Below, piece by piece: positions 1,411 to 18,611 of a stretch of DNA of 64,000 bases. The DNA is from Amaricoccus macauensis (GTDB lineage Bacteria; Pseudomonadota; Alphaproteobacteria; Rhodobacterales; Rhodobacteraceae): assembly GCF_014201905.1 (NCBI RefSeq), contig NZ_JACHFM010000003.1:434001-498000 (forward strand), read 5' to 3'. Each line of letters starts with the position of its first letter. Positions within the stretch are counted from its first letter, which is position 1. Both the position numbers and the translations under genes were made by a program. A model generated the notes under the pieces. That model ran no database searches and was not told the origin of the DNA. It saw nothing but the letters and a program-made list of their open reading frames with translations.

Positions 1411-2957
1411 GCCGGGGAGCGGCGCAGGGCGGCGCGCACGTCGGATACCTTCAGCGCGCCAAACCCGAGAGCTGCGGCGGCGTAGACTCCGGCACCAACC
1501 ACGACGAGGGCCGCAAGCGTTGCATACTGCAGCGTCGGGTGAGCGATCGCTCCCGCGAGAACGTGTGCCGCGATCGCGAGGACGCCGCCCATGACGATGC
1601 AGGCGAGCAGAATCCGGGGAATCGCACGGCGCAGGCGTTCGTCGGCAGAGGCGGCGTCGCCCATGGCGCGCGTCCCCCACCAGAGCTGCAAGAGCATCGT
1701 CCAGCCGGCGACGGTGGTGCCAAGGGCCGCGGCAATGAAGCCGATGAAGGGCGCGAGGCCGATCGCGATCACCGCGTTCACGATCATCGCGTGAACCGCG
1801 AAGATGAAAGGCGAGCGGGTGTCCTCGCGCGCATAGTAGAGCGGTGAGATCACCTTCTGCATCACGAACGCCGGCAGGCCGGCGCCGTAGACCGCCACGG
1901 CCAGCGCCGTCGGCCAGGTGTCGGAGGCATCGAACGCGCCATGCTGGAACAGCACGGCGACGATCGGCACCGGGATTACCATGAGGGCGACCGCCGCAGG
2001 CAGCGTGAGGGCGAGCGTGAGCTCGGTCGCGCGGTTGATCGCGTCACGTCCCCCCGACCCGTCACCGGCCTTGAGGCGCCGCGAGAGGTCCGGGAGCATG
2101 ACGGTGCCGATGGCGATGCCGACGACGCCGAGCGGCAGCTGATAGAGCCGGTCGGCGTAGGAGAGCCACGCGACCGCGCCATCGAAGAACGAGCCGACCT
2201 GCCGTCCGACGATCAGGTTGATCTGCACCACGCCGCCGGCGAGGAGGGCGGGTACCATGATCACCGTCAGCCGCTTCATCTCCGGCGTCAGGCGCGGCCA
2301 GCGCGGCCGGATCGGCATGCCGATCTTCGCGCAGCCCCACCAGACGAGCGCGAGCTGCGCGACACCCGCCACCGGGACCGACCAGATCTGCCAGAGCCCG
2401 ATGTTGCCGCCCGACCACCAGCCCCAGAGCAGGAAGGCGATCATCACCACGTTCATCAGGATCGGTGCGGCGGCGGCGAGCGCGAAGCGACCGAGGGAGT
2501 TGAGGACGCCCGAGAGCAGCGCGGTCAGTGAGATGAAGAGGATGTAGGGAAACGCGATGCGGCCGTGTTCGACGGCGAGGGTGAAGCGTTCGTCGCCGTG
2601 AAAGCCCGAGGCGAGCGCATAGACGAACCACGGCATGACGACGATGCCGATACCCACCAGCGCGATGAGCACGAATCCGAGGCCGGACAGCGCATCGCGC
2701 GCGAAGCCCTCTGGGTCGTCGTTCGCCTCGACCTTCTTGGCGAACATCGGCACGAAGGCGAGGTTGAACGCGCCCTCTGCGAAGAACCGGCGGAACATGT
2801 TCGGCATGGTGAAGGCAATCAGGAATGCCTGCGCGACCGGGCCGGTGCCGAGGAAGCTCGCCATCAGGATGTCGCGCACGAGCCCGAGCACACGGCTCGC
2901 CATCGTCCACCCGCCGACCGCGAGGAAGGCGGGCAGGAGCCGGATCGGCTTGTTCAT
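1401..2957 (-). CDS. murJ: MurJ, lipid II flippase
   Basis: The 518-residue product is an integral membrane protein of the MurJ/MviN (MOP) family, which moves lipid-linked peptidoglycan precursor across the inner membrane. It starts MNKPIRLLPAFLAVGGWTMA; the family signature RVLGLVRDILMASFLG follows, then NMFRRFFAEGAFNLAFVP. Hydrophobic helices continue to the end, and length and the expected 14 helices fit the family. The ATG overlaps the glnD stop as ATGA (2954-2957), so translation is probably coupled. An open frame extends far upstream of this ATG, but it is only read-through in an alternative frame of glnD. Confidence 0.95.
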   Translation of the reverse strand: MNKPIRLLPAFLAVGGWTMASRVLGLVRDILMASFLGTGPVAQAFLIAFTMPNMFRRFFAEGAFNLAFVPMFAKKVEANDDPEGFARDALSGLGFVLIALVGIGIVVMPWFVYALASGFHGDERFTLAVEHGRIAFPYILFISLTALLSGVLNSLGRFALAAAAPILMNVVMIAFLLWGWWSGGNIGLWQIWSVPVAGVAQLALVWWGCAKIGMPIRPRWPRLTPEMKRLTVIMVPALLAGGVVQINLIVGRQVGSFFDGAVAWLSYADRLYQLPLGVVGIAIGTVMLPDLSRRLKAGDGSGGRDAINRATELTLALTLPAAVALMVIPVPIVAVLFQHGAFDASDTWPTALAVAVYGAGLPAFVMQKVISPLYYAREDTRSPFIFAVHAMIVNAVIAIGLAPFIGFIAAALGTTVAGWTMLLQLWWGTRAMGDAASADERLRRAIPRILLACIVMGGVLAIAAHVLAGAIAHPTLQYATLAALVVVGAGVYAAAALGFGALKVSDVRAALRRSPASR

Positions 2958-5794
2958 CTGGTCGCTCTGTCTGGTTCGGGAACTGCGGCGGCGATGGCGG
3001 CGCGGAGGCGCTGCTCGAGCTGCGAGCGCTTGGACTCGGTATAGAGCTTCAGCCCGAACAGATCCTTCACATAGAAGGCATCGACCGCCTGCTCGCCGAA
3101 GGTGGCGATGATCGCCGAGGAGATCGAGATCCCGTTCGCCGTCAGCGTCCGCGCGAGGTCGTAGAGCAGGCCGGGCCGGTCGCGGGTTTCCACCTCGATG
3201 ATGGTGTAGATGTCCGAGCCGGAGTTGTCGAAGCTGATCCGGGTCGGCACCTGGAAGTCGCGCTCGCGCTTCTTGATCTTGTCCTTGTCGCGCAGTGCCT
3301 CGCGCGCCTTGATCTGGCCGGCCATCGTGCCCTGGACTGAAGCCCGGAGACGGGCCATGCGCGCCTCTTCGTATGGCTTGCCGCTGGCATCCTGGATCCA
3401 GAAGGCGGCGGTGGCGACGCCGTCCGTGGTGGTGTAGGTGCGCGCGTCGACCACGTTCGCCCCCGCAAGCGCGAGCGCGCCGGCGAGGCGGGCGAAGATG
3501 CCCGGATGGTCGGCCATGGCGAAGCAGACCTGCGTGGCGTCGCGGTTCGCGTCGAGCTCGATCTCCATTTCGGGGCTGTCGTCCTTCAGACCCCGGCCGA
3601 GACGGGCGAAGATCGCGTGGGTGCGGGTGTCGAACCCGAGCCAGTAGGGGGCGTAGTGCCTGGCGCACTCGTCCTCCAGTTCGGACTGGGACCAGTCGGA
3701 AAGCGCCTCACCGAGCGCGGCCTTGGCCGCAGCCTCGCGCTCGGGGCGGCTCGGCGCCTGGGTGCCGCCGGTCAGCACGTCGATCGTCTCGTTGTAGAGC
3801 GTGCGCAGCAGCATCGCTTTCCAGTTGTTCCAGACCCCGGGGCCGACGCCGCGGATATCGCAGACGGTCAGCACGGTCAGGAACTTCAGCCGGGTCGGGC
3901 TCTTCACCTGACGGGCGAAGTCGCGGGCGGTTCGCGGGTCGGCGAGGTCGCGCTTCTGGGCAACGTCGGACATGAGCAGGTGATTCTGCACGAGCCAGAC
4001 CACGAGCTCGGTCTCCTGCGGCTCGAGGCCGAGGCGCGGGCAGAGCGTCTCGGCCACCTCGGCGCCGACCGTCGAATGGTCGCGGCCCGAGCCCTTGCCG
4101 ATGTCGTGCAGCAGCAGGGCGACGTAGAGCACGCGCCGGTCGACGCCACGCGCCATGATTTCCGAGACGATCGGCAAGTCGCCGGTGAGCTCCTTCCGTT
4201 CGATCGTCGAGAGGGTCGAGATCGTGCGGATCGTGTGCTCGTCCACGGTGTAGTAGTGGTACATGTTGAACTGCATCAGCGCGACGATGCGGCCGAACTC
4301 GGGGATGAAGGCGCCGAGAACCCCTACCTCGTTCATCAGCCGCAAGCCCCGTTCGGGGTTCTGGTGGCCGAGCAGCAGGTCGAGGAAGATGCGGTTCGCC
4401 TCGCGGTCGTTGCGCACGCCGTCGTCGATCAGGTCGAGGTTTGCCGCCACCCGGCGCAGCGCGTCCGGATGGATCGGGATATCGGCCGCAAGGCTCTCCT
4501 CGAAGAGCCGCAGGATGTTGACCGGATCGGTCTCGAAGGCGCGCTCGTCCAGCATGTCGAGCCGGCCGTTCTTCAGGGTAAAGCCCCGTCCCGTCGGGTC
4601 GCGGCCGAAGGTGAAGACCGTGCGGAGCTTCTCGCCGAAGGTCGGCTTCGATTTCACGTGCCGCGCCTCGAGGGCGGCGAGGAAGATGCGGGTGAGATCG
4701 CCCACGTGCTTCGCGTGGCGGAAGTAGTCGTGCATGAACTGCTCGACGCCGCGCTGGGCGCTGTCGTCGCGGTAGCCGAGCATGCCCGCAATATCGACCT
4801 GCGCGTCGAAGGTCAGCTGCTCCACCGGCCTGCCGTTCAGCAGGTGCAGGTGGACCCGCGTGGTCCAGAGGAAGGCCTCTGCGGCGGCGAGACTCGCGTA
4901 CTCTTCCGAGGTGAAGACGCCGACGCGCACCAGATCTTCGGTGGACCCGGCATGGTAGAGGTATTTGCCGATCCAGTAGAGCGTCTGGAGGTCGCGCAGG
5001 CCGCCCTTGCCTTCCTTGACATTCGGCTCGAGCAGGTAGCGCGAACTCCCCTGCCGATCATGCCGCGCGTTGCGCTCCTCGAGCTTCAGCTCGACGAACT
5101 GCGGACCGGTCGAGTCGAAAAGCTCGGACCAGAGGCGGGAGTCGAGTGCCTCCGCCAGCGCCTGGTTGCCCCAGAGGTAGCGGCTTTCCAGCAGGCTGGT
5201 GCGGATGCTCACGTCCTGCTTCGCGAGGCGCAGGCAGTCGTCGATGGAGCGGGTCGAGTGGCCGACCTTGAGACGGAGATCCCAGAGCACATAGAGGACG
5301 CTCTCGATCAGGCTCTCGCCCCAGGGCGTCTGTTTGTAGGGCGTGAGAAACAGCAGGTCGATGTCGGAAAACGGCGCCATCTCGGCGCGGCCAAAGCCGC
5401 CGACCGCGACGGCGGCGATGTGCTCGGACGACGTCGGGTTCGGCAGGACATGCATGCGCCGGACGCCGAGGTCGAGCACCAGACGCACGATTGTCCCGGA
5501 CATCCAGGCGTAGTCGTGGATCGCCCGATGCGCCTCGCGCGGGGCGCCGGCGATCGCCGCGGCGATCGCCGCGCGTGCTTCGGCGAGCGCATCGCGCAGC
5601 AGGGGCACCACGGCCGGGCGGATGGCGCAGCGGTCGCCCGCGGCGATTGCCTCGGCCGCGGCGCTGTCCATCGCCGCGGCGAGCGCCGGTGCGTCGATCA
5701 GGCGCTCGGGGTCGGCGACCAGGCCCGGCCACGGGTCGGGTGCGGTCGCCTCGGCCGTGGAAGACGGGAGCTGGTCAGAAGCCAACGGTGTCAA
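2954..5794 (-). CDS. glnD: GlnD, bifunctional PII uridylyltransferase/uridylyl-removing enzyme
   Basis: GlnD senses glutamine and adds or removes UMP on PII proteins, controlling nitrogen assimilation. Domains in order: nucleotidyltransferase with GGFGRAEMAPFSDIDLLF (residues about 132-149, metal-binding Asp pair), a helical linker, an HD hydrolase domain with LHDIGKGSGRDHS (about 560), and two C-terminal ACT domains (about 755 and 865) that bind glutamine. Length (946) is normal for alphaproteobacteria. The annotated start is a TTG that overlaps the upstream lipoprotein gene by 20 bp; another TTG lies three codons downstream and no strong ribosome site is visible, so the exact N-terminus is uncertain. 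It runs straight into murJ with an ATGA overlap. Confidence 0.95.
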   Translation of the reverse strand: MTPLASDQLPSSTAEATAPDPWPGLVADPERLIDAPALAAAMDSAAAEAIAAGDRCAIRPAVVPLLRDALAEARAAIAAAIAGAPREAHRAIHDYAWMSGTIVRLVLDLGVRRMHVLPNPTSSEHIAAVAVGGFGRAEMAPFSDIDLLFLTPYKQTPWGESLIESVLYVLWDLRLKVGHSTRSIDDCLRLAKQDVSIRTSLLESRYLWGNQALAEALDSRLWSELFDSTGPQFVELKLEERNARHDRQGSSRYLLEPNVKEGKGGLRDLQTLYWIGKYLYHAGSTEDLVRVGVFTSEEYASLAAAEAFLWTTRVHLHLLNGRPVEQLTFDAQVDIAGMLGYRDDSAQRGVEQFMHDYFRHAKHVGDLTRIFLAALEARHVKSKPTFGEKLRTVFTFGRDPTGRGFTLKNGRLDMLDERAFETDPVNILRLFEESLAADIPIHPDALRRVAANLDLIDDGVRNDREANRIFLDLLLGHQNPERGLRLMNEVGVLGAFIPEFGRIVALMQFNMYHYYTVDEHTIRTISTLSTIERKELTGDLPIVSEIMARGVDRRVLYVALLLHDIGKGSGRDHSTVGAEVAETLCPRLGLEPQETELVVWLVQNHLLMSDVAQKRDLADPRTARDFARQVKSPTRLKFLTVLTVCDIRGVGPGVWNNWKAMLLRTLYNETIDVLTGGTQAPSRPEREAAAKAALGEALSDWSQSELEDECARHYAPYWLGFDTRTHAIFARLGRGLKDDSPEMEIELDANRDATQVCFAMADHPGIFARLAGALALAGANVVDARTYTTTDGVATAAFWIQDASGKPYEEARMARLRASVQGTMAGQIKAREALRDKDKIKKRERDFQVPTRISFDNSGSDIYTIIEVETRDRPGLLYDLARTLTANGISISSAIIATFGEQAVDAFYVKDLFGLKLYTESKRSQLEQRLRAAIAAAVPEPDRATR

Positions 5795-6968
5795 ACGACC
5801 GCGCTGCCGGTTCGCGGACCACCGGTGCGCCGTTCTGCACTGCGATGATCGCGAGGTTGCGCTGTGCCCGGCCGGACGGTGTGAAGCGGAACGGGCCGTT
5901 CACGCCGGCAAAGCCGGAGGGTTGGGTCAGTCGCTCGGTGGAGAACGGGCTGCCGCCCTGGCTCCGCGCCTCGGCGATCAGCGCGCCGACCGCGGCCACG
6001 CCGTCATAGGCGAGCCCGGCGAGTTCATGCGGGCTCTCGCCGTAGGCGGCGTGGTAGCGGCCGTTGAACGCGGTGACGATGCCGGGATCGGGCGCCGCGA
6101 AGACGCCACCCTGCAGGCTCGGCGCCTGCAGCGCCTCGGCGGAGATGTCCCAGCGCTGCATCCCGAGGAACTGGCCCCGATCCGGGCCGACGCCGTTGCT
6201 GCGCAGTCCGTCGGCGATGAACGAAAGGCCGCCGGTCGGCCCGTCGGTCAGGATGATGCCGTTCGCCCCGGCGCCGAGCAGCGCCTGCGCCGCCGGCCCG
6301 GCGGCGGACTGGATGCCCTGAACCGAGAGATTGTAGCCCTGGCTTGCCGCAAGGGTCGCGCCGCGGTCGGCCGCAGCAGCCTGGACCGCGTCGCGGGCGG
6401 TCTCGCCCTCGAGCCCGGACGGGTAGACCACGCCGAACGGCCCGAGGCCGCGGGCCTGACCGTAGGCGATGAGCCGGTCGGCGGTGTTCTGGAAGGTGGT
6501 CCCGAGGATGTAGACGTTCGACCCGGCGACCGAGGGGTTGTTCGAGAAGCTGAGGAGCGTCAGGCCCGCGGCGGCCGCAGGGCCTTCCGCGCCGGCCGTC
6601 TCGGTGCTGAAGAGCGGGCCGACGATGATCTTCGCGCCCTCGGAAACCGCCTGGTTCGCCGCGGCGGCGCCACCCGACGTGGTGCCCGCGGTGGGATAGA
6701 CGACGAGATCGATCGTGGCGTTGTGCACGTCACCCTGGGCGAGGCGCGCGGCGTTCTCGAGGCTCCGGGCGATCTGCTCGCGACCCTCGTCGCCCGTGCC
6801 GTAGGGCAGGAGCAATGCCACCCTGACGGGCCCGTTCACGTCGACCGCGATGCCGTCGTTGACGGGCAGCCTCGCCTGCGAGACGCAGCCAGCCACGAGG
6901 GTGCCGGCGAGCGCCAGAGCTGCGGGCCGAAGGAGGTTGCGGATGGAGAATCGAGTTGACAGCATCAT
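5775..6968 (-). CDS. LpoA-like lipoprotein (penicillin-binding protein activator family)
   Basis: The 397-residue protein begins with a lipoprotein signal whose lipobox LVAGC places the lipidated Cys at residue 28. The rest is a type I periplasmic-binding fold (Peripla_BP_6/LpoA-like): VRVALLLPYGTGDEG at the first strand, IIVGPLFSTETAGAEG, and AYDGVAAVGALIAEA near the end. In relatives this family sits beside rsmI and is annotated as penicillin-binding protein activator. It has no ABC permease neighbours, which argues against a transport role. It is divergent from rsmI and overlaps the glnD start. Activation of a peptidoglycan synthase is inferred from family and context, not shown. Confidence 0.8.
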   Translation of the reverse strand: MMLSTRFSIRNLLRPAALALAGTLVAGCVSQARLPVNDGIAVDVNGPVRVALLLPYGTGDEGREQIARSLENAARLAQGDVHNATIDLVVYPTAGTTSGGAAAANQAVSEGAKIIVGPLFSTETAGAEGPAAAAGLTLLSFSNNPSVAGSNVYILGTTFQNTADRLIAYGQARGLGPFGVVYPSGLEGETARDAVQAAAADRGATLAASQGYNLSVQGIQSAAGPAAQALLGAGANGIILTDGPTGGLSFIADGLRSNGVGPDRGQFLGMQRWDISAEALQAPSLQGGVFAAPDPGIVTAFNGRYHAAYGESPHELAGLAYDGVAAVGALIAEARSQGGSPFSTERLTQPSGFAGVNGPFRFTPSGRAQRNLAIIAVQNGAPVVREPAARSFDTVGF

Positions 6969-7059
6969 CCCTCACCGTGACTTTCAGGGCGACTTTTCAG
7001 GTGCGCGGCAGGCGGTGTCGCCATTTCGTAGGGCCTTGGCAGGCGGAAGTAAACGAGGA

Positions 7060-7962
7060 ATGGACAGCGACCGGAGCGATGCGCCGGAGGCGGACGCACC
7101 GGAGCCGGAGGGCGACGGAACGCTGGCGGCCGGCCTCTATCTCGTGGCGACGCCCATCGGCAACGCCCGTGATATCAGCTTGCGCGCCCTCGACGTGCTG
7201 GGATCCGCCGATCTGCTCGCGGCCGAGGACACTCGCACGACCCGGCGGCTGCTCGAGATCCACGGGCTCAGGCGCGGCGGGCGGAGCCTCGTCGCCTATC
7301 ACGACCACAACGGTGCCGCGGTGCGTCCGCGGCTGCTGGCGGCGCTGGCCGAGGGGCGGAGCGTGGCGCTGGTCTCCGACGCGGGGACGCCGCTTCTGGC
7401 TGATCCGGGGTATCGTCTCGTGGCGGAGGCGCGGGCGGCCGGGCACGCGGTGACGGCGGTGCCGGGGGCTTCGGCACTGCTTTCGGCACTGTCGATCGCC
7501 GGGCTGCCGACCGACCGCTTTCTGTTCGCCGGCTTCCTGCCACCAAAGCGTGCAGCGCGCCGCCGGGCGCTCGGGGAACTCGCGGCGGTGCCGGCGACGC
7601 TCGTCTTCTACGAGTCGCCCCGACGCGTGGCGGAGTGCCTCGCGGACATGGCCGAGGTGCTTGGGGCCGAGCGGGAGGCGGCCGTTTGCCGCGAGCTCAC
7701 CAAGCGCTTCGAGGAGACGCGTCGCGGGTCGCTCGGGGAGCTTGCCACGACCTATGGCACCGAGCCGGACCCCCGAGGCGAGGTGGTTCTGCTCACCGGG
7801 CCGCCGGTTGCGAGTGCGCCTTCGGAAGAGACGCTCGATGCAGCCCTCGTGACCGCACTTGAAGAGCTCACGGTGCGCGACGCGGCGACCGAAGTGGCGG
7901 CGACGCTCGGTCTGCCACGCCGTGAGGTCTATGCCCGGGCGCTGGAACTGGCCCGGCGTTAA
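7060..7962 (+). CDS. rsmI: RsmI, 16S rRNA (cytidine-1402-2'-O)-methyltransferase
   Basis: The 300-residue protein has the SAM-dependent tetrapyrrole-methylase fold of RsmI: GLYLVATPIGNARDISLRAL near the N-terminus, AEDTRTTRRLLEIHGL, VSDAGTPLLADPGYRLV, and VPGASALLSALSIAGLPTD. RsmI 2'-O-methylates C1402 in the ribosomal decoding centre. I chose the ATG at 7060 because conserved sequence starts 26 residues later; the frame is open further upstream but that overlaps the divergent lipoprotein promoter. The acidic 20-residue lead (DSDRSDAPEADAPEPEGDG) is variable in the family. A YraN-family gene follows in the same direction. Confidence 0.93.
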   Translation: MDSDRSDAPEADAPEPEGDGTLAAGLYLVATPIGNARDISLRALDVLGSADLLAAEDTRTTRRLLEIHGLRRGGRSLVAYHDHNGAAVRPRLLAALAEGRSVALVSDAGTPLLADPGYRLVAEARAAGHAVTAVPGASALLSALSIAGLPTDRFLFAGFLPPKRAARRRALGELAAVPATLVFYESPRRVAECLADMAEVLGAEREAAVCRELTKRFEETRRGSLGELATTYGTEPDPRGEVVLLTGPPVASAPSEETLDAALVTALEELTVRDAATEVAATLGLPRREVYARALELARR

Positions 7963-8017
7963 CCAAGTCGATCGGCGGTGGCTTGTGGCGGTTGGGGGGC
8001 GGGGCCACACTCGGGCG

Positions 8018-8371
8018 ATGTTTACCGCACAGAACTTTCAGTCCGGCATTGCCGCGGAGGAACTCGCCGCCCGCTCCTATCGGATGGGGGGCGGAGAGAT
8101 CCGCGCGATGCGCTGGCGCTGTCCGGAGGGCGAGCTCGACATGGTCGTCGACCTGCCCGATGAGATCGTGTTCGTTGAGGTGAAGGCCCGCCGCCACCAC
8201 GATCCCGGCGCCGTCACCGAACGTCAGTGGGCGCGCATCGGGGCGGCTGCGACCCGCTATCTCGCCGAACAGACCGATGGCTCGCGGCCCTGTCGCTTCG
8301 ACCTCGCGCTGGTCGATCGTTTCGGCCGGCTCGAGCGCATCGAGAATGCCCGGGCCTTCGATGGCTGGTAG
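8018..8371 (+). CDS. YraN/UPF0102 family nuclease-like protein
   Basis: The 117-residue product matches the YraN family, a restriction-endonuclease-like fold of unsettled function that often sits beside rsmI. The core motif is ELDMVVDLPDEIVFVEVKAR (residues about 37-56), with the acidic and E-x-K residues of the nuclease fold. An ATG at 8018 gives MFTAQNFQSG; an in-frame GTG at 7985 would add 11 residues, so the start is not certain. The gap to rsmI is about 55 bp, consistent with co-transcription. A long hairpin follows the stop. Confidence 0.85.
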   Translation: MFTAQNFQSGIAAEELAARSYRMGGGEIRAMRWRCPEGELDMVVDLPDEIVFVEVKARRHHDPGAVTERQWARIGAAATRYLAEQTDGSRPCRFDLALVDRFGRLERIENARAFDGW

Positions 8372-8421
8372 CCGGGTCACGGTTTGCCACTGCACGTCGG
8401 GCCCCGATGGGCAAGCTCGAT

Positions 8422-8458
8422 GCCCACCGCCCGGCGAGGGACCCGCCGGGCGGTGGGC
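8422..8458. terminator. 15-bp-arm hairpin between convergent yraN-like and cold-shock genes
   Basis: GCCCACCGCCCGGCG (8422-8436) is perfectly complementary to 8444-8458 with a 7-base loop. It lies between the two convergent stops and can fold on either transcript. There is no T-run on either side. Confidence 0.6.
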
Positions 8459-8492
8459 GGCACGCTCGCGTGCTGCAAGCCGCCCTGTAAGT

Positions 8493-8702
8493 TTAGTCCG
8501 CCAGCGAGAGATTCGCTGCTGACTGGCGACCGTCGCGGCCGGTCTCCAGGTCGAAATTGACCTTCTGGCCGTCATCGAGACGCTGGATTCCGGCGCGTTG
8601 GAGCGCGGAGATGTGGACGAAGACATCCTTGGCGGCGCCATCCGGACGGATGAAGCCGAAGCCTTTGGTTTCATTGAACCACTTGACAGTACCGGAGGCC
8701 AT
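8493..8702 (-). CDS. CspA-family cold-shock protein
   Basis: This 69-residue single cold-shock domain carries both RNA-binding motifs: [14 protein letters not shown] (RNP1 region, KGFGFI) and DVFVHISAL (RNP2). Such proteins are single-stranded nucleic-acid chaperones that melt mRNA structure. The ATG at 8702 is preceded by only a weak ribosome site, and the upstream sequence contains alternative hairpins (8829-8859), in keeping with the leader-based control known for cspA-type genes. Convergent with the YraN-family gene. Confidence 0.93.
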
Positions 8703-9254
8703 CGGGCGCGTGTCCTTGTCGTTTGTGCCGCCCGCGAGGATGCGGCGGCCTGGCGCAGTCATCGAAGAACCGACTGTCCAGCCGTGAAGACAAGGGAGGT
8801 CGTTCCACGTAACAGAGCGAGCAGAGGCTCGGGTAAAAACCTCCCGAATGCAAGAGGTTCCGCATTTCGCGCCTATTGATACAACGTATGGTAGAGTGCC
8901 TGGCGCCGAGAATCCGACGCGCCGGAAGCGGCGGCGGGGCCGGCGCGTCAAGGGGCGCGGCACAACGCCGCTCGGCAACCCTGCGACAGCGCAAGGGCAG
9001 GCAGGGTGCGGCAGGCATGGGCGGACACGGATAGCCGCGCGGCGGGGAGACGCGGTGGCTCGGCTGGCCTTGGGGCATGTTTTCCTCCATTCGTTCCGGC
9101 GCAGCCGGATTTCGTGCCAGAATGTGGACGAGTTGCCATCGCGCGACGGGGCCGGAGAAACAGGCGCCGGCGGGCCGGGAGGAGACGCGGTCAGCGAAAC
9201 CGCAGCCGCTTGGCAGCGTTCCTGAAAAGGGGGCGGTGTGACAGGAGAGATGTT
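8703..9254. other. 552-bp intergenic region between divergent cold-shock and papain-fold genes
   Basis: No convincing gene is present. The left third would be the cold-shock leader, including a hairpin-forming stretch with five consecutive A (T on the transcript) at 8835-8839. Around 8860-8895 it is AT-richer and may hold the leftward promoter. The right part is G+C-rich and would carry the rightward promoter of the hydrolase gene; no clear -35/-10 is recognisable. Confidence 0.5.
8829..8859 (-). promoter_or_regulatory. Mutually exclusive hairpins in the cold-shock leader
   Basis: On the minus strand AACCTC and GAGGTT (8859-8854 and 8843-8838) form a stem running into a T5 tract, like an intrinsic terminator. 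A competing stem pairs TCGGG with CCCGA (8847-8843 and 8833-8829), sharing the base at 8843 and spanning the first stem's 3' arm. The site is about 130 bp before the start codon. A temperature- or protein-switched leader is possible; the transcription start is unknown. Confidence 0.35.
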
Positions 9255-10058
9255 GTGACTGCGACGGCGGAGGGTCTGGCGGACCGGTTTGGTCGGTTTC
9301 TGGCGCGGCGCCTGAATGAGGTGCCGCCCGGTGCGCACCCCTACACCCATGCCAACGTCGCGGCGCTGCGCCGTTCCCTGCGGCCGGGCGACGTGCTGCT
9401 TGTCGAGGGCAACAGCCGGGTCTCGAGCACCATCAAGTACCTGACGATGTCGACCTGGAGCCACGCCGCGCTCTGCGTCGGCAATGCCGTCGGCCGGGTT
9501 TCGGCGGATGGGGAACCGCTCGTCCTCGTCGAGGTGAACCTTGGGGACGGCTGCATCGCGGCGCCGCTCTCGAAGTACGAGTTCTACAACACCCGAATCT
9601 GTCGGCCGAGCCACCTGTTGGATGCCGATCTCGCCCGGGTGATCGACTTTATGGTTGGCAGTATCGGCAAGCGCTACGACATGAAGAACATCACTGACCT
9701 GCTGCGCTACGCTCTGCCTGAGCCGCCGGTACCGGCGCGCTGGCGACGCCGGATGCTGGCCGTTGGCTCGGGCGATCCGACCCGGGCAATCTGCTCAACG
9801 CTGATTGCTGAAGCCTTCGAGCGCATCCGCTATCCCATCCTGCCGAGGATCACGCGCGAGTTTCGGGCCAATCCGCGCGCCCGCGCGCATCGGCGAGAGA
9901 TATTGCACATCCGTCATCACTCCTTGTTCGCACCCCGTGACTTTGATCTTTCGCCGTATTTTCACATTGTGAAGCCGACGTTGGAGGCCGGGTTTGACTA
10001 CCGGCGCCTCCGCTGGGCCGAGACTGCGCTTGAAACGCCGCTGGAATCGGCATCCTGA
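9255..10058 (+). CDS. YiiX/YaeF-like permuted NlpC/P60 (papain-fold) hydrolase
   Basis: The 267-residue protein starts at a GTG with AGGAGAG five bases upstream. It shows the circularly permuted papain-like arrangement of the YiiX/YaeF group: a conserved PGDVLLVEG strand, His70 in [10 protein letters not shown], Glu93 in [11 protein letters not shown], and the nucleophile Cys180 in [12 protein letters not shown] near the C-terminus. In standard NlpC/P60 enzymes the Cys comes first, so the order is diagnostic. Members are predicted amidases or acyltransferases acting on peptides or lipids; the substrate is unknown. No signal peptide is visible, so it is probably cytoplasmic or peripheral. Neighbours give no functional hint. 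Confidence 0.75.
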
Positions 10059-13079: not shown

Positions 13080-16000
13080 TCAGAACTCCTCGACGTGAAT
13101 GACGCCCGGCACTGATTTGAGCGCGCTCAGGATTTGCGGGCTCATGGGGTAGGGTTCCGGGAGGGTGATCTCCACCTCGCCGGGCAGGTCGGGGTGGATC
13201 AGCACGAGGTTGATCGGGCCCTTGCGCCGACTGGTCATCTGCTCCGTCACCATGGCGAGGCGCGCGGAGAGCGACGGGGCGGCGGCCGGATCGCCGACGA
13301 AGATGCGCAGGCCCGCGGCGGCGGCGGCGGCAACGGCGGCCTCGATCGGCTGCACGCCCCGGGCGAGGAGGCGCATCTCGTCGCCCTCCACGGTGGCCTC
13401 CACGGTCAGGACCACGTTCTGCCCCGGCTCCAGATGGTCACGCGATGCCTCGAAGACATCGGAGAAGACCAGTGTCTCATAGAGGCCGGTCGGGTCGGAG
13501 AGGCGCAGGAAGGCGAAGCGCGAGCCGCGCGAGGACTTGCGCAAGTCGACGGCGGCGATGGTGCCGGCGATGCGCGCCACGGTCTGCGAGACGCCGGCGC
13601 ACTGGCGCACCAGCTCGGCGTGGGTGACCACCCGCTCGCGGCGGAGCGCGCCCTGGTAGTCGTCGAGTGGATGGCCCGAGAGATAGAAACCGATCGCCGC
13701 GTGTTCCTGCGACAACCGCTCCATGGGCGACCAGTCCTCGGGCTGGGGCAGGCGAGGCTCGGGCAAGGACGCGGTGGCATCACCGAAGAGCGAGACCTGT
13801 GCGGAGGCGCGTTCCTCGTGGGCGGAGGCGGAATAGGCGATGAGCAGTTCAAGGCTCTCCATCACCTTGCGGCGGTTCGAATCGAGCACGTCGAGCGCGC
13901 CGGCGCGGGCCAGCATCTCGAGCGCCCGGCGTCCGACCCGGCGCAGGTCGACACGGGCGGCGAAATCGAAGAGTCCGGCGAACCTGCCGCCGGCCTTGCG
14001 CGCCTCGGTGATGAGCCGCATCGCCTCGACGCCGACGTTCTTGAGCGCCCCGAGAGCGTAGACGATGCGCCCCTCCGAGACGGCGAAGGTGGCGTCCGAG
14101 CGATTGACGCAGGGCGGGACGGTCTCGATGCCGAGGCGGTCCACCTCCTGCTTGTAGCCGCCGAGCTTGTCGGTGAGATGGATGTCGCAGTTCATGACGG
14201 CGGCCATGAACTCGACCGGGTGGTTCGCCTTCAGCCACGCGGTCTGGTAGCTCACCACCGCATAGGCGGCGGCGTGGGACTTGTTGAAGCCGTAGTTCGC
14301 GAACTTGTCGAGCAGGTTCCACACCTCCTCGGCCTTGGCCTTCGGCACGCCGTTCTCGGCGGCGCCGTTCAGGAACAAGGGCTTCTGCGCGTCCATCTCG
14401 GCCTGGATCTTCTTGCCCATGGCGCGGCGCAGCAGGTCGGCGCCGCCGAGGGAATAGCCCGCCATCTTGCGGGCGATCTCCATCACCTGCTCCTGATAGA
14501 CGATGATCCCCTGCGTCTCGTCGAGGATCTGGTCGATCGTCGGATGCAGGCCCTCGCGCGGCTCGCGGCCGTTCTTGACGTTGCAGAACTTCGGGATGTT
14601 CTCCATCGGGCCGGGGCGGTAGAGCGCCACGAGCGCGATGATGTCCTCGATGCAGTTCGGCTTCAGCTGGCGCAGCGCCGAACGCATGCCGGTCGATTCC
14701 ACCTGGAAGACCGCCACCGTCTGGGCGCTGGCGTAGACCTCGTAGGTCCTTGCGTCGTCGAGGGGGATCGCGCCGATATCCACCGTGACGTTGCGGAGCT
14801 TCAGGAGGTCGATGGCGTTCTGGATGACGGTCAGCGTCTTCAGCCCGAGGAAGTCGAACTTCACCAGTCCGGCCTCTTCCACCCACTTCATGTTGTACTG
14901 GGTGGCGGGCATGTCCGAGCGTGGGTCGCGGTAGAGCGGCACCAGTTGCTCAAGCGGCCGGTCGCCGATGACGACACCTGCGGCGTGAGTCGAGGCATTC
15001 CGCAGAAGCCCTTCGACAGACTTGGCAATTTCCAGAAGGCGCGCGACCTGCGGCTCCCTTGACGCTTCCTCGCGCAGGCGCGGCTCGTCGGCGAGCGCCT
15101 TCTCGACGGAGACCGGCTTCACGCCCTCCATCGGGATCAGCTTCGAGAGCCGATCCACCTGGCCATAGGGCATCTGCAGCACCCGGCCCACGTCGCGCAC
15201 CGCGGCCTTGGAGAGCAGCGCACCGAAGGTGATGATCTGCGCAACCCGGTCGCGGCCGTACTTCTCCTGCACGTAGGCGATGACCTCCTCGCGGCGGTCC
15301 ATGCAGAAGTCGATGTCGAAGTCCGGCATCGAGATGCGCTCAGGATTCAGGAACCGCTCGAAGAGCAGCTGATAGCGCAGCGGGTCGAGGTCGGTGATCG
15401 TGAGCGCATAGGCCACGAGCGAGCCCGCGCCCGAGCCGCGGCCGGGGCCGACCGGGATGTCGTGCTCCTTCGCCCACTTGATGAAGTCCGCCACGATCAG
15501 GAAGTAGCCGGGGAAGCCCATGTTTTCGATGACGCCAAGCTCGAACTCGAGCCGGTCGCGATAGGCTTCAAGGCTCGCCGAGTGCGGGATGACCTCGAGG
15601 CGGGCGTCGAGGCCCTCGCGCGCCTGCCGCCGCAGTTCCTCCACCTCGTCTTCGGCGAAACGGGGCAGGATCGGATTGCGCTTCTTCGGGCGATAGGCGC
15701 AGCGGCGGGCGATCTCGACGGTGTTCGCCACCGCCTCGGGCAGGTCGGCGAAAAGCTCGACCATTTCCGCCTCGGTCTTGAAACAGTGCTCGGGCGTGAG
15801 GCGGCGGCGCGGCTCCTGCTGGTCGACGTAGGTGCCGTCGGCGATGCAGAGCAGCGCGTCGTGCGCCTCGTGCATGGTCCGGCTGGCGAAATGGACGTCG
15901 TTCGTCGCCACCAGCGGCAGGTCGAGGTCATAGGCAAGCGTGACGAGACCGGGTTCGGTCGCCTCTTCCGCTGGTGTCCGCGGCGCGCCGTTCTCCGGGT

Positions 16001-16538
16001 GGCGCTGTATCTCGACGTAGAGCCGGCCGGGAAAGACCTCCGCGAGGCGCTGGGCGAGCGCGCGGGCGCGTTCCGGGTGGCCGTCGCGCAACTGCGCCCC
16101 GAGCGGGCCATCGGCGCCACCGGTCAGGCAGAGGAGGCCGTCGGCGTGGGTGGCGAGGGTCTCGAGAGTGACGTGGGGAAGCTCGGCGCCGCAGTCGAGA
16201 TAGGCGGCGGAGGAGAGCTTGAGGAGATTGCCGAACCCGGTCTCGTCCTGCGCGAGCAGCACCACCGCGGCGGGCGCGGGCGCCCGGTCGCCCGGGTGCG
16301 CGGGCCGCGCGTAGGCCAGCGTGAGCTGGCATCCCATGATCGGCTGCACCGGCTTTTCGGCCTTCGCGCAGGCGTCGGAAAACTCCAGAGCGTTGAAAAG
16401 GTTGTTCGTATCGGTCAGCGCGACCGCCGGCATTCCCACCTTGCCGCAGAGCTTCGGCAGCGCCTTGGCGGCGATGGCGCCCTCAAGCAGCGAGTATGCG
16501 GAATGCACGCGGAGGTGGATGAATCGGGGCTCGGCCAT
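13080..16538 (-). CDS. dnaE: DnaE, DNA polymerase III alpha subunit
   Basis: This 1152-residue replicative polymerase subunit has the normal length of the DnaE1 class. It opens with the PHP domain (HLRVHSAYSLLEGAI, then ALTDTNNLFNALEF), followed by the C-family polymerase palm, where MPDFDIDFCMDRREEVIAYV (about residue 400) holds the two catalytic Asp residues. GPGRGSGAGSLVAYAL lies just before it. The helix-hairpin-helix and OB-fold region follows, then a C-terminal tail-binding domain. The start MAEPRFIHLRVHS gives the canonical N-terminus. It is monocistronic or follows the small DUF1328 gene upstream, with a very long hairpin in between. Confidence 0.97.
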   Translation of the reverse strand: MAEPRFIHLRVHSAYSLLEGAIAAKALPKLCGKVGMPAVALTDTNNLFNALEFSDACAKAEKPVQPIMGCQLTLAYARPAHPGDRAPAPAAVVLLAQDETGFGNLLKLSSAAYLDCGAELPHVTLETLATHADGLLCLTGGADGPLGAQLRDGHPERARALAQRLAEVFPGRLYVEIQRHPENGAPRTPAEEATEPGLVTLAYDLDLPLVATNDVHFASRTMHEAHDALLCIADGTYVDQQEPRRRLTPEHCFKTEAEMVELFADLPEAVANTVEIARRCAYRPKKRNPILPRFAEDEVEELRRQAREGLDARLEVIPHSASLEAYRDRLEFELGVIENMGFPGYFLIVADFIKWAKEHDIPVGPGRGSGAGSLVAYALTITDLDPLRYQLLFERFLNPERISMPDFDIDFCMDRREEVIAYVQEKYGRDRVAQIITFGALLSKAAVRDVGRVLQMPYGQVDRLSKLIPMEGVKPVSVEKALADEPRLREEASREPQVARLLEIAKSVEGLLRNASTHAAGVVIGDRPLEQLVPLYRDPRSDMPATQYNMKWVEEAGLVKFDFLGLKTLTVIQNAIDLLKLRNVTVDIGAIPLDDARTYEVYASAQTVAVFQVESTGMRSALRQLKPNCIEDIIALVALYRPGPMENIPKFCNVKNGREPREGLHPTIDQILDETQGIIVYQEQVMEIARKMAGYSLGGADLLRRAMGKKIQAEMDAQKPLFLNGAAENGVPKAKAEEVWNLLDKFANYGFNKSHAAAYAVVSYQTAWLKANHPVEFMAAVMNCDIHLTDKLGGYKQEVDRLGIETVPPCVNRSDATFAVSEGRIVYALGALKNVGVEAMRLITEARKAGGRFAGLFDFAARVDLRRVGRRALEMLARAGALDVLDSNRRKVMESLELLIAYSASAHEERASAQVSLFGDATASLPEPRLPQPEDWSPMERLSQEHAAIGFYLSGHPLDDYQGALRRERVVTHAELVRQCAGVSQTVARIAGTIAAVDLRKSSRGSRFAFLRLSDPTGLYETLVFSDVFEASRDHLEPGQNVVLTVEATVEGDEMRLLARGVQPIEAAVAAAAAAGLRIFVGDPAAAPSLSARLAMVTEQMTSRRKGPINLVLIHPDLPGEVEITLPEPYPMSPQILSALKSVPGVIHVEEF

Positions 16539-16581
16539 GGCCGCGACCCTAGCAGTCGCGCGAGGGTCTGCAAGACGGGGT

Positions 16582-16646
16582 GCGCCGGGAGCGGGCGCGG
16601 ATTGCCTGGCGACGGCCGCGAGGCGATCCGCGCCCGCTCCCGGCGC
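16582..16646. repeat. 21-bp perfect inverted repeat between DUF1328 gene and dnaE
   Basis: Bases 16582-16602 and 16626-16646 are perfect reverse complements. The 23-base loop can extend the stem by a G-T wobble and four more pairs (GCCT with AGGC), making about 26 bp. It begins 4 bp past the stop of the small gene and ends before dnaE. It probably terminates or insulates the stress-induced transcript; no T-run. Confidence 0.75.
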
Positions 16647-16649
16647 GTC

Positions 16650-16817
16650 TCAGCCGTTTCCGCGCACCATCCGGACGACCGCGGACAGGGCAAAAAACGC
16701 GAGCGCTACCTGAAAGACGATGCGCGCGAGCTCCACGGCCGCGCCTTCGCTGCCACCGAACCCGAGGATTGCTGCCCCGAGTGCGACGATAAGGGAGCCC
16801 AGGCCCCATTCGAGCAT
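16650..16817 (-). CDS. DUF1328 (YtjA-type) small membrane protein
   Basis: A 55-residue peptide, MLEWGLGSLIVALGAAILGF followed by GGSEGAAVELARIVF and a second hydrophobic helix ending in VVRMVRGNG. Two membrane helices with a GFGG turn and a basic end match the DUF1328/UPF0391 family, small inner-membrane proteins of unknown function often induced by stress. GGAGA sits six bases before the ATG. A perfect EcfG-type promoter lies 46 bp upstream of the start. It is short enough to be missed by ordinary gene calling. Confidence 0.85.
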   Translation of the reverse strand: MLEWGLGSLIVALGAAILGFGGSEGAAVELARIVFQVALAFFALSAVVRMVRGNG

Positions 16818-16862
16818 AAGGATTCTCCGATCAAGCTAGGACTTTGGTCGTAGACACACCAA

Positions 16863-16887
16863 AACGCACTAATCGCACGAATGTTCC
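16863..16887 (-). promoter_or_regulatory. EcfG-type (general stress sigma factor) promoter
   Basis: On the minus strand GGAAC (16887-16883), 16 bases, then CGTT (16866-16863) matches the alphaproteobacterial EcfG consensus GGAAC-N16/17-CGTT exactly. Start of transcription would fall near 16856, about 39 bp before the DUF1328 ATG. It overlaps no other gene and is just past the Crp/Fnr stop. Confidence 0.65.
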
Positions 16888-16892
16888 AGTGG

Positions 16893-17633
16893 TCAGATCA
16901 ACGGACGAGGTTCTCCATCGGTCCGTTCGTAGGCAGCGAGCGCCTCGAGTTCCGGCCGGTTCTCCAGGTAGATCGTGCCTTCCTGCCAGCGCATCAAGCC
17001 CTGATCACGCAGTTTGCGCAGGGTGCGGCTGAGATGCACGGAGGTGATGCCAAGGGCGTCGGCGAAATGCCCCTGCGCGAAGGGTGTCCGCAGCAGATCC
17101 CTGGTGGCGTAACCCACCGCCTTCGCCCGGTCGTATAGGTGCAGCGCCAGATAGACCGTGCGCTCGATGGCGCTGCGCTGCCCGACGCTCAGCAGAAGTC
17201 CGTCGAGCAACTGTTCCTCCCGCGCCGCGACCCAGGTCATGGCGTGGGCGAGGGCCGGATGGTCGTGATAGACCGACCAGAAGCTGTCACGCTGGAAGAC
17301 GCAGAGCCGGACCTGTGTCAGGGCCGTCACCGTGTGCTGCATGTCGTTCAGGATTGCGAGTTGCAGGCCGACCAGATCGCCGGGCAGCGCAAAGTTCAGA
17401 ACCTGCCGCCGGCCGTCCGCGATGCCCTTGTGGCGATAGGCCCAGCCCTCCAGCACCGTGTAGACGTGCGGGCTGGCGCTGTTCTCGAGCAGGATCGTCG
17501 CGCCGGGTTCGACCACCAGCTCGCCGCGCTTGAACTGGTGCATGAACTCGATCTCGGAGGGGCTGAGGGCGCGAAATGCCGGCAGTCGCCGCAGGGGGCA
17601 TTCCTCACATCGCACCGGCTCTTGCGGCGACAT
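16893..17633 (-). CDS. Crp/Fnr-family transcriptional regulator
   Basis: The 246-residue protein has an N-terminal cyclic-nucleotide-type beta barrel (GATILLENSASPHVYTVLEG, then LPGDLVGLQ) and a C-terminal winged helix-turn-helix with recognition segment GITSVHLSRTLRKLRDQGLM. The N-terminus has a CEEC pair (residues about 9-12) before PLRRLPAF, but the further cysteines needed for an FNR 4Fe-4S cluster are missing, so oxygen sensing is not supported. Its ligand is unknown. The start MSPQEPVRCEE has GGAGAG upstream. Monocistronic; the EcfG promoter of the small gene begins after its stop. Confidence 0.88.
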   Translation of the reverse strand: MSPQEPVRCEECPLRRLPAFRALSPSEIEFMHQFKRGELVVEPGATILLENSASPHVYTVLEGWAYRHKGIADGRRQVLNFALPGDLVGLQLAILNDMQHTVTALTQVRLCVFQRDSFWSVYHDHPALAHAMTWVAAREEQLLDGLLLSVGQRSAIERTVYLALHLYDRAKAVGYATRDLLRTPFAQGHFADALGITSVHLSRTLRKLRDQGLMRWQEGTIYLENRPELEALAAYERTDGEPRPLI

Positions 17634-17760
17634 CGCATCTCTCCATCCTGGGGTCCGCCGAGAGAAATGCAGCGCCTTCACCGGGCGTTCCATGGGCTGC
17701 CTGCGGAATGTGCAACGTGGCTGCCAACCGCCGATGGGAGGCGTCCGGCGGACCCGCGTC

Positions 17761-17814
17761 CCGGCAGCGGGTGCCGGACAAGACTGCGGACGGACGTTTG
17801 CTACGCCCGTCCGC
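17761..17814 (-). terminator. Tandem hairpins downstream of terC
   Basis: GCGGACGG (17786-17793) pairs with 17807-17814, and CCGGCA (17761-17766) with 17772-17777. They follow the TerC stop within 60-110 bp, in the 237-bp gap that also carries the Crp/Fnr promoter. Confidence 0.4.
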
Positions 17815-17870
17815 ATCGCCCTCGCGGGTGTGGTCCGACCGGGTGTGCCGGTTTCGGACGCCGGTTCGGC

Positions 17871-18611
17871 TCAGTGCGCGTCCTGGTCCGCCGGCCGGGT
17901 CTTGCCGAGCTTCTTGGCGCGCCAGAGGTTCAGGAACTCGACGATGCCGGAGAAGAGCATCGCGGTGTAGATGAACGCCCGCTCGATGTGGAAGTGCAGG
18001 CCATCCGCGACCAGCGCCATGCCGACCATCACCAGGAAGGCGAGGGCAAGCATCTTGGTCGACGGGTGCTGATGCACGAACTCGGCGATCGGGCCGGCGG
18101 CCAGCATCATCACGACGATGGCGACCATGACGGCGGCGACCATGACGGGCACGTGGTCGGCGATGCCCACGGCGGTGATGACGCTGTCGAGCGAGAAGAT
18201 CACGTCGAGCATCATGATCTGAATGATGATGGCGCGGAAGGTGACGTTGCGGATCGAGTGCTCCGCCGCCTCGTGCCCCTCGACTTCGTGGAAGATTTCC
18301 GTCGTCGCCTTCCAGAGCAGGAACAGGCCGCCGCCGAACAGGATCACGTCACGCCAGCTGAGTTCGAAGCCGGAGATCGTCATGAACGGCTCGGTGAGCC
18401 CGACGATCCAGCCAATCGACATGAGGAGCAGGATTCGCAGGATGAGCGCGCCCGAGAGGCCGATGATGCGCGCCTGGCGCCGTTGCTCGGGTGGCAGCTT
18501 CGATGCGGCGATCGAGATGAAGATGATGTTGTCGACACCGAGAACGATCTCGAGGACCGTCAGGGTGGCGAAGCTAATCCAGACGGCCGGATCAGACAGA
18601 AGTTCGAGCAT
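17871..18611 (-). CDS. TerC-family integral membrane protein
   Basis: The 246-residue protein has about seven hydrophobic helices. It carries the two acidic membrane motifs of TerC: LEIVLGVDNIIFISI near the start and DVIFSLDSVITAVGIADH in the middle. Such proteins are linked to metal (manganese) export and loading of exported metalloproteins. GAGGG precedes the ATG by seven bases. No other tellurite-resistance genes are near, so this is a stand-alone member. Two hairpins follow. Confidence 0.9.
   Translation of the reverse strand: MLELLSDPAVWISFATLTVLEIVLGVDNIIFISIAASKLPPEQRRQARIIGLSGALILRILLLMSIGWIVGLTEPFMTISGFELSWRDVILFGGGLFLLWKATTEIFHEVEGHEAAEHSIRNVTFRAIIIQIMMLDVIFSLDSVITAVGIADHVPVMVAAVMVAIVVMMLAAGPIAEFVHQHPSTKMLALAFLVMVGMALVADGLHFHIERAFIYTAMLFSGIVEFLNLWRAKKLGKTRPADQDAH

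Follow-up and report, generated by a model that had tools for sequence, protein, structure and literature searches.

The closest described systems are the EcfG regulons of Rhizobium etli and Sphingopyxis granuli and the RpoE2 regulon of Sinorhizobium meliloti which, as is proposed for the locus analyzed here, combine an EcfG-type promoter with control by PhyR-NepR-EcfG. The promoter, GGAAC-N16-CGTT, has been published (PMC3892343, PMC7083833) and is given in exactly this form for R. etli and S. granuli; keyword searches of the main texts on the three regulons, supplementary tables aside, did not turn up DUF1328. In Rhodobacter sphaeroides, the effects of a phyR mutation are seen mainly under membrane and UV stress, and RSP_1271-1274 comprise phyR, a NepR-like gene, ecfG and a kinase gene, with a Crp-Fnr gene adjoining phyR (PMC5830050). 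A described DUF1328 protein is YtjA (53 aa; Salmonella and E. coli), which resembles the protein discussed here in having two predicted transmembrane segments and in being under a general-stress sigma factor but differs in that this factor is sigma-S, which is unrelated to EcfG. Salmonella YtjA is among the small proteins that are tightly controlled by sigma-S, its tagged form has been immunodetected, and the small membrane proteins of its set have been suggested by the authors to stabilize or modulate the membrane (PMC5437024). No paper joining the DUF1328 family to EcfG was found among open-licence full texts, supplements excluded; regulon tables elsewhere may list it.

The DUF1328 gene examined here lies in a 64-kb stretch of the Amaricoccus macauensis genome (“the window” denotes this entire stretch), at 16650-16817 on the minus strand, where an ORF call with an ATG start and a Pfam match define a 55-aa product; Shine-Dalgarno-like GGAGA (16824-16828, minus strand) is located 6 nt ahead of the ATG. 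Because the profile search yielded 28.0 bits for DUF1328 (PF07043), barely over the cut-off of 27, we regard this product, by sequence, as a divergent member of the family; it stayed below the cut-offs of the NCBIfam PRK13682-type models (best score 52.5 vs 71). The product has the traits of the family, namely, a length of about 50-60 aa, two hydrophobic helices and a G-F-G-G turn; in the family alignment, A15, G19, F20 and A31 are conserved at 90% or more. The AlphaFold2 model (mean pLDDT 81.6; pTM 0.42) consists of helices 2-20 and 24-52, that is, a predicted two-helix membrane hairpin with a glycine-rich GFGG turn and a basic tail. The search for sequence relatives in the PDB returned none (best E 0.32) and Foldseek returned no fold match for the model; given the pTM and the little that was gained beyond the two helices, structure was dropped as a clue to function. 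A 463-aa open frame that runs antisense over dnaE and the DUF1328 gene (15462-16853, plus strand) is probably a spurious ORF of high-GC DNA.

A motif search located an EcfG-type promoter, GGAAC-N16-CGTT, at 16887-16863 on the minus strand (-35 element, 16887-16883; -10 element, 16866-16863), 70 nt upstream of the DUF1328 ATG, so that this gene has a GGAAC-N16/17-CGTT site at promoter distance on its own strand. The arrangement described in a sequence-only reading of this DNA, a 55-residue DUF1328 gene behind this promoter and between dnaE (13080-16538, minus strand) and an upstream Crp/Fnr gene, was thus recovered in full. The site is the sole match in the window, and its mere presence is not significant because 0.26 matches are expected and 23 of 100 shuffled windows contain at least one. 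By a simple estimate, the chance of a match at such a place is about 3e-4; as we read the sequence, the position before DUF1328, rather than the existence of a match, carries the weight. A transcript start near 16856 (minus strand), predicted in the same reading and expected from its distance to the -10 element, is compatible with the sequence and would leave a 5' leader of about 39 nt. Under a different interpretation, the motif is a chance occurrence, and DUF1328 is either constitutively expressed or co-transcribed with the Crp/Fnr gene; besides the expectation of 0.26, the site starts only 5 nt past the Crp/Fnr stop codon, which would make read-through possible. However, no sigma-70-type site was called in 16400-17900, and the comparison with relatives, undertaken because a single site in a single genome is weak evidence, argues strongly against chance.

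The order-level sample consisted of 149 genomes from 73 genera, all of one bacterial family; 83 of these genomes carry 99 DUF1328 genes, and the 150 nt preceding the start of each gene were examined. The relaxed motif GGAAC-N16/17-NGTT was found in 94 of the 99 upstream regions, at distances of 48 to 139 nt from the start, compared to 214 of 9752 background windows from the same loci (2.2%; 0.0219) and none of the 99 regions when the pattern was reversed; the genomes in our samples share ancestry, so that these counts represent non-independent events and the p-values overstate significance. The strict CGTT form accounts for about half of the genes (48/99), and the spacer is 16 nt in 50 genes and 17 nt in 44. 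In a similar test, nepR, taken as the positive control, was preceded by the motif in 26 of 30 loci, which were drawn from the nepR places found. Among the five motif-less genes, three carry it farther away, at 423-460 nt upstream, as could be expected if they formed an operon with the gene before them; of the remaining two, one comes from a genome without NepR or a confident PhyR (G083) and one is without explanation (G110). The motif precedes all 5 DUF1328 genes of the same genus, 15 of 18 genes from other relatives in the family, 28 of 55 genes in a class-wide sample of 190 genomes (55 of 56 places, the window's own gene being excluded) and 9 of 12 genes from further alphaproteobacteria (12 of the 35 genes new in the phylum sample were read). 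By contrast, none of the 33 DUF1328 genes from Pseudomonadota outside Alphaproteobacteria has it, a further difference from YtjA. In a second DUF1328 subfamily, with a GFGR-x-SG turn and no basic tail, the motif precedes all 12 genes (loci L185-L187 and L189-L197). With 94 of the 99 genes of the family sharing the motif and 0 of 33 outside the class, the chance interpretation was rejected on conservation and is very improbable; the same recurrence ties the gene to the general stress response, as originally proposed from the promoter, far more strongly than a single motif could.

The circuit on which the promoter would depend is encoded in the same genome. The ecfG, nepR and phyR genes are adjacent in one locus (L003) on contig C2: ecfG (7702-8256 in locus coordinates) overlaps nepR (8253-8459), phyR is divergent, and an HWE histidine kinase gene (HWE_HK, 83.9 bits) is located about 1 kb beyond phyR. 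In the profile search of the genome, NepR (PF18557) scored 39.4 bits against a cut-off of 25.7, and PhyR combines sigma-like and receiver domains (PF22029, 86.4 bits; PF22233, 55.4 bits; Response_reg, 43.3 bits). The intact PhyR-NepR-EcfG system predicted from the promoter is therefore present. Before nepR, this genome has only GGAAC-N16-CATT, in place of the NGTT form that is seen in most of the related loci. Genome-wide, GGAAC-N16/17-CGTT has 72 matches vs 46 for the reversed control; 50 of the 72 sites were checked for downstream genes, and 17 of these got through a rough filter. Strict motifs precede, among others, genes for an entericidin and two Transgly_assoc proteins and, in the form GGAAC-N17-CGTT, a second EcfG-like ECF gene (PhyR_sigma2 domain, 52 bits; L034, G000:C2:515188); together, these presumably resemble known stress regulons.

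Across the family sample, NepR was found in 79 of the 83 genomes with DUF1328, whereas NepR occurs in the absence of DUF1328 in 19 genomes and a further 47 lack both (odds ratio 49, ancestry ignored). Three of the four NepR-negative DUF1328 genomes encode PhyR (48-50 bits) at most 2 kb from DUF1328 and retain the motif; the fourth (G083) yields only a sub-threshold match to a PhyR domain (22 bits) and lacks the motif. Because of these three, the detection of NepR in 98 of the 149 sampled genomes is a lower bound for the system, a distribution that fits the expectation that not every member of the order has it. A Fisher test that added the three PhyR-rescued genomes was dropped given that the PhyR search covered only part of the 47 genomes without both. 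In the class sample, the motif precedes 23 of 33 DUF1328 genes where the genome encodes PhyR or NepR vs 5 of 22 where neither was found (Fisher p 0.0009, kinship ignored); the latter five genes count against control by EcfG. Also counting against it, a published table reports Ensifer DUF1328 genes as down-regulated, with no mention of EcfG; the same holds for the divergence of the window's protein, the separation of its gene from nepR and the restriction of the strict CGTT form to about half of the family's genes. In 70 of the 83 genomes, no more than 10 kb separates DUF1328 from nepR or phyR, and phyR is downstream and convergent for 42 of the 99 genes. The conservation of the promoter, together with the co-occurrence and linkage with NepR and PhyR, makes DUF1328 very likely a core EcfG target in this family, judging from the sequences compared.

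The presence of the second EcfG-like gene raises the question of which sigma factor acts at this promoter: another ECF factor might use it instead of, or in addition to, the EcfG encoded next to nepR. The second gene itself sits behind GGAAC-N17-CGTT, and EcfG paralogues with shared promoter motifs have been described (PMC3892343, PMC7083833). Nevertheless, such a factor would most probably operate as part of this cascade, and DUF1328 tracks the presence of NepR and PhyR; we consider this alternative unlikely. That the general-stress sigma factor EcfG acts directly on the DUF1328 gene of the window is, by contrast, highly probable on the genomic evidence.

The upstream neighbor, which encodes a Crp/Fnr-family regulator (16893-17633, minus strand; ATG at 17633 preferred over 17816), is part of the same stress neighborhood, a connection missed in the sequence-only reading. 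A candidate EcfG-type promoter, GGAAC-N17-CATT (17666-17691, minus strand), is located at -58 from its ATG, with one match in the window and 0.40 expected. Relatives of this regulator (at least 35% identity) occur near 41 of the 98 other DUF1328 genes of the family, nearly all in divergent orientation upstream, and GGAAC-N16/17-CATT precedes 10 of these 42 Crp/Fnr genes, the window's own included. The CATT variant, which is common to the nepR gene of this genome, the Crp/Fnr gene of the window and nine other Crp/Fnr relatives, suggests a second accepted form of the -10 element. A relative of the same genus (G152) has the same order, Crp/Fnr followed by DUF1328, with a 71% identical Crp protein and its own strict motif. 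For 35 of the 99 DUF1328 genes, the relaxed motif is found upstream on the opposite strand as well, and the divergent ORFs upstream of the family's genes include DUF883_C, PLDc_N and ferritin-like proteins, the last of which we take to be of the Dps type. In an Afifella MAG (L316), five GGAAC-N16-NGTT sites fall within positions 1935-9399 of a 12.8-kb locus, where 0.37 are expected; one directly precedes a gene for a 52% identical Crp/Fnr protein, near MscS- and phospholipase-D-like ORFs. We read these sites as a putative stress island; no DUF1328-like ORF was recognized beside the Crp gene. The window's genome is an exception to the linkage: unlike in R. sphaeroides, where the Crp-Fnr gene adjoins phyR, the Crp/Fnr-DUF1328 pair is on contig C3 and the phyR-nepR-ecfG locus on C2. 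The arrangement probably reflects a single ancestral stress island, which the pair would have left in this genome.

Linkage of this kind invites the interpretation that DUF1328, along with its Crp/Fnr partner, is a component of the circuit rather than a mere output, for example by modulating the HWE kinase from the membrane or by forming a damping loop. The role of PhyR in membrane stress in R. sphaeroides (PMC5830050) fits this possibility, as do the near-obligate co-occurrence with NepR and the tight linkage described above. Yet the same neighborhood also includes plain outputs (DUF883_C, PLDc_N and ferritin-like proteins), 19 of the 98 genomes with NepR manage without DUF1328, and members of the DUF1328 family occur outside the class, where, to our knowledge, NepR is not expected. 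A role within the circuit thus appears improbable.

On the other side of the gene, a hairpin directly 3' of the DUF1328 stop codon and before dnaE (16582-16646, minus strand; arms 16582-16611 and 16617-16646) has 30-nt arms that are 93% complementary, and the 83-nt fold has an energy of -69.1 kcal/mol (z -8.7). It lacks a T-run, and no terminator-like site was called there; on its sequence, it likely insulates or terminates the DUF1328 transcript. The downstream dnaE gene is not thought to be part of the stress unit. In the five DUF1328 loci of the same genus, no dnaE match was found within at most 1.5 kb on either side, and among the relatives examined only two loci show matches, which are weak (25-26%) and lie at a distance of over 3 kb. 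A functional tie between DUF1328 and dnaE was rejected because dnaE was not seen beside DUF1328 in these relatives and the strong hairpin separates the two genes. The “ytjA” of a paper on dnaE co-evolution is the Bacillus yidD-type gene, a homonym.

The DUF1328 gene, its promoter, the sigma factor circuit and the conservation of the promoter and the linkage are all read directly from the genomes; we infer the EcfG dependence, the membrane insertion and the action of the protein. Under stress, phosphorylated PhyR would capture NepR and EcfG would be released, whereupon RNA polymerase would initiate at GGAAC-N16-CGTT and produce a short, probably single-gene mRNA ending at the hairpin that follows the stop codon. 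The 55-aa product would be an inner-membrane hairpin that accumulates in the inner membrane under stress, perhaps within a group of jointly controlled small envelope proteins. Once made, it could act on a membrane complex, changing its activity, or alter membrane packing or properties, although we consider this only a tentative suggestion.

Given that DUF1328 is apparently under EcfG here and that the Salmonella member depends on sigma-S, the family seems to be under two stress sigma factors that are unrelated to each other. A broader proposal, which we rate somewhat below an even chance, is that DUF1328 is a core general-stress effector run by EcfG in Alphaproteobacteria and by sigma-S in Gammaproteobacteria; that, in the bacterial family studied here, it belongs to one conserved island with phyR, nepR, ecfG and a dedicated Crp/Fnr regulator, the Crp-DUF1328 half of which has moved away in the window's genome; and that it possibly feeds back on the circuit. 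DUF1328 is a widespread, uncharacterized family, and the EcfG-type promoter precedes nearly every one of its genes in this bacterial family, mostly beside phyR-nepR-ecfG. Because the promoter-gene pairing recurs in most of the related bacteria, DUF1328 probably belongs to the regular repertoire of the general stress response of Alphaproteobacteria, as opposed to being an accidental find. This would guide the search for a phenotype toward an EcfG-competent strain, either under membrane stress or in stationary phase. Combined with the published sigma-S dependence, it suggests that two unrelated stress regulators have a set of small envelope proteins in common; if the proposal holds, the membrane hairpin would provide a basic stress function that each of the two regulators was selected to control.
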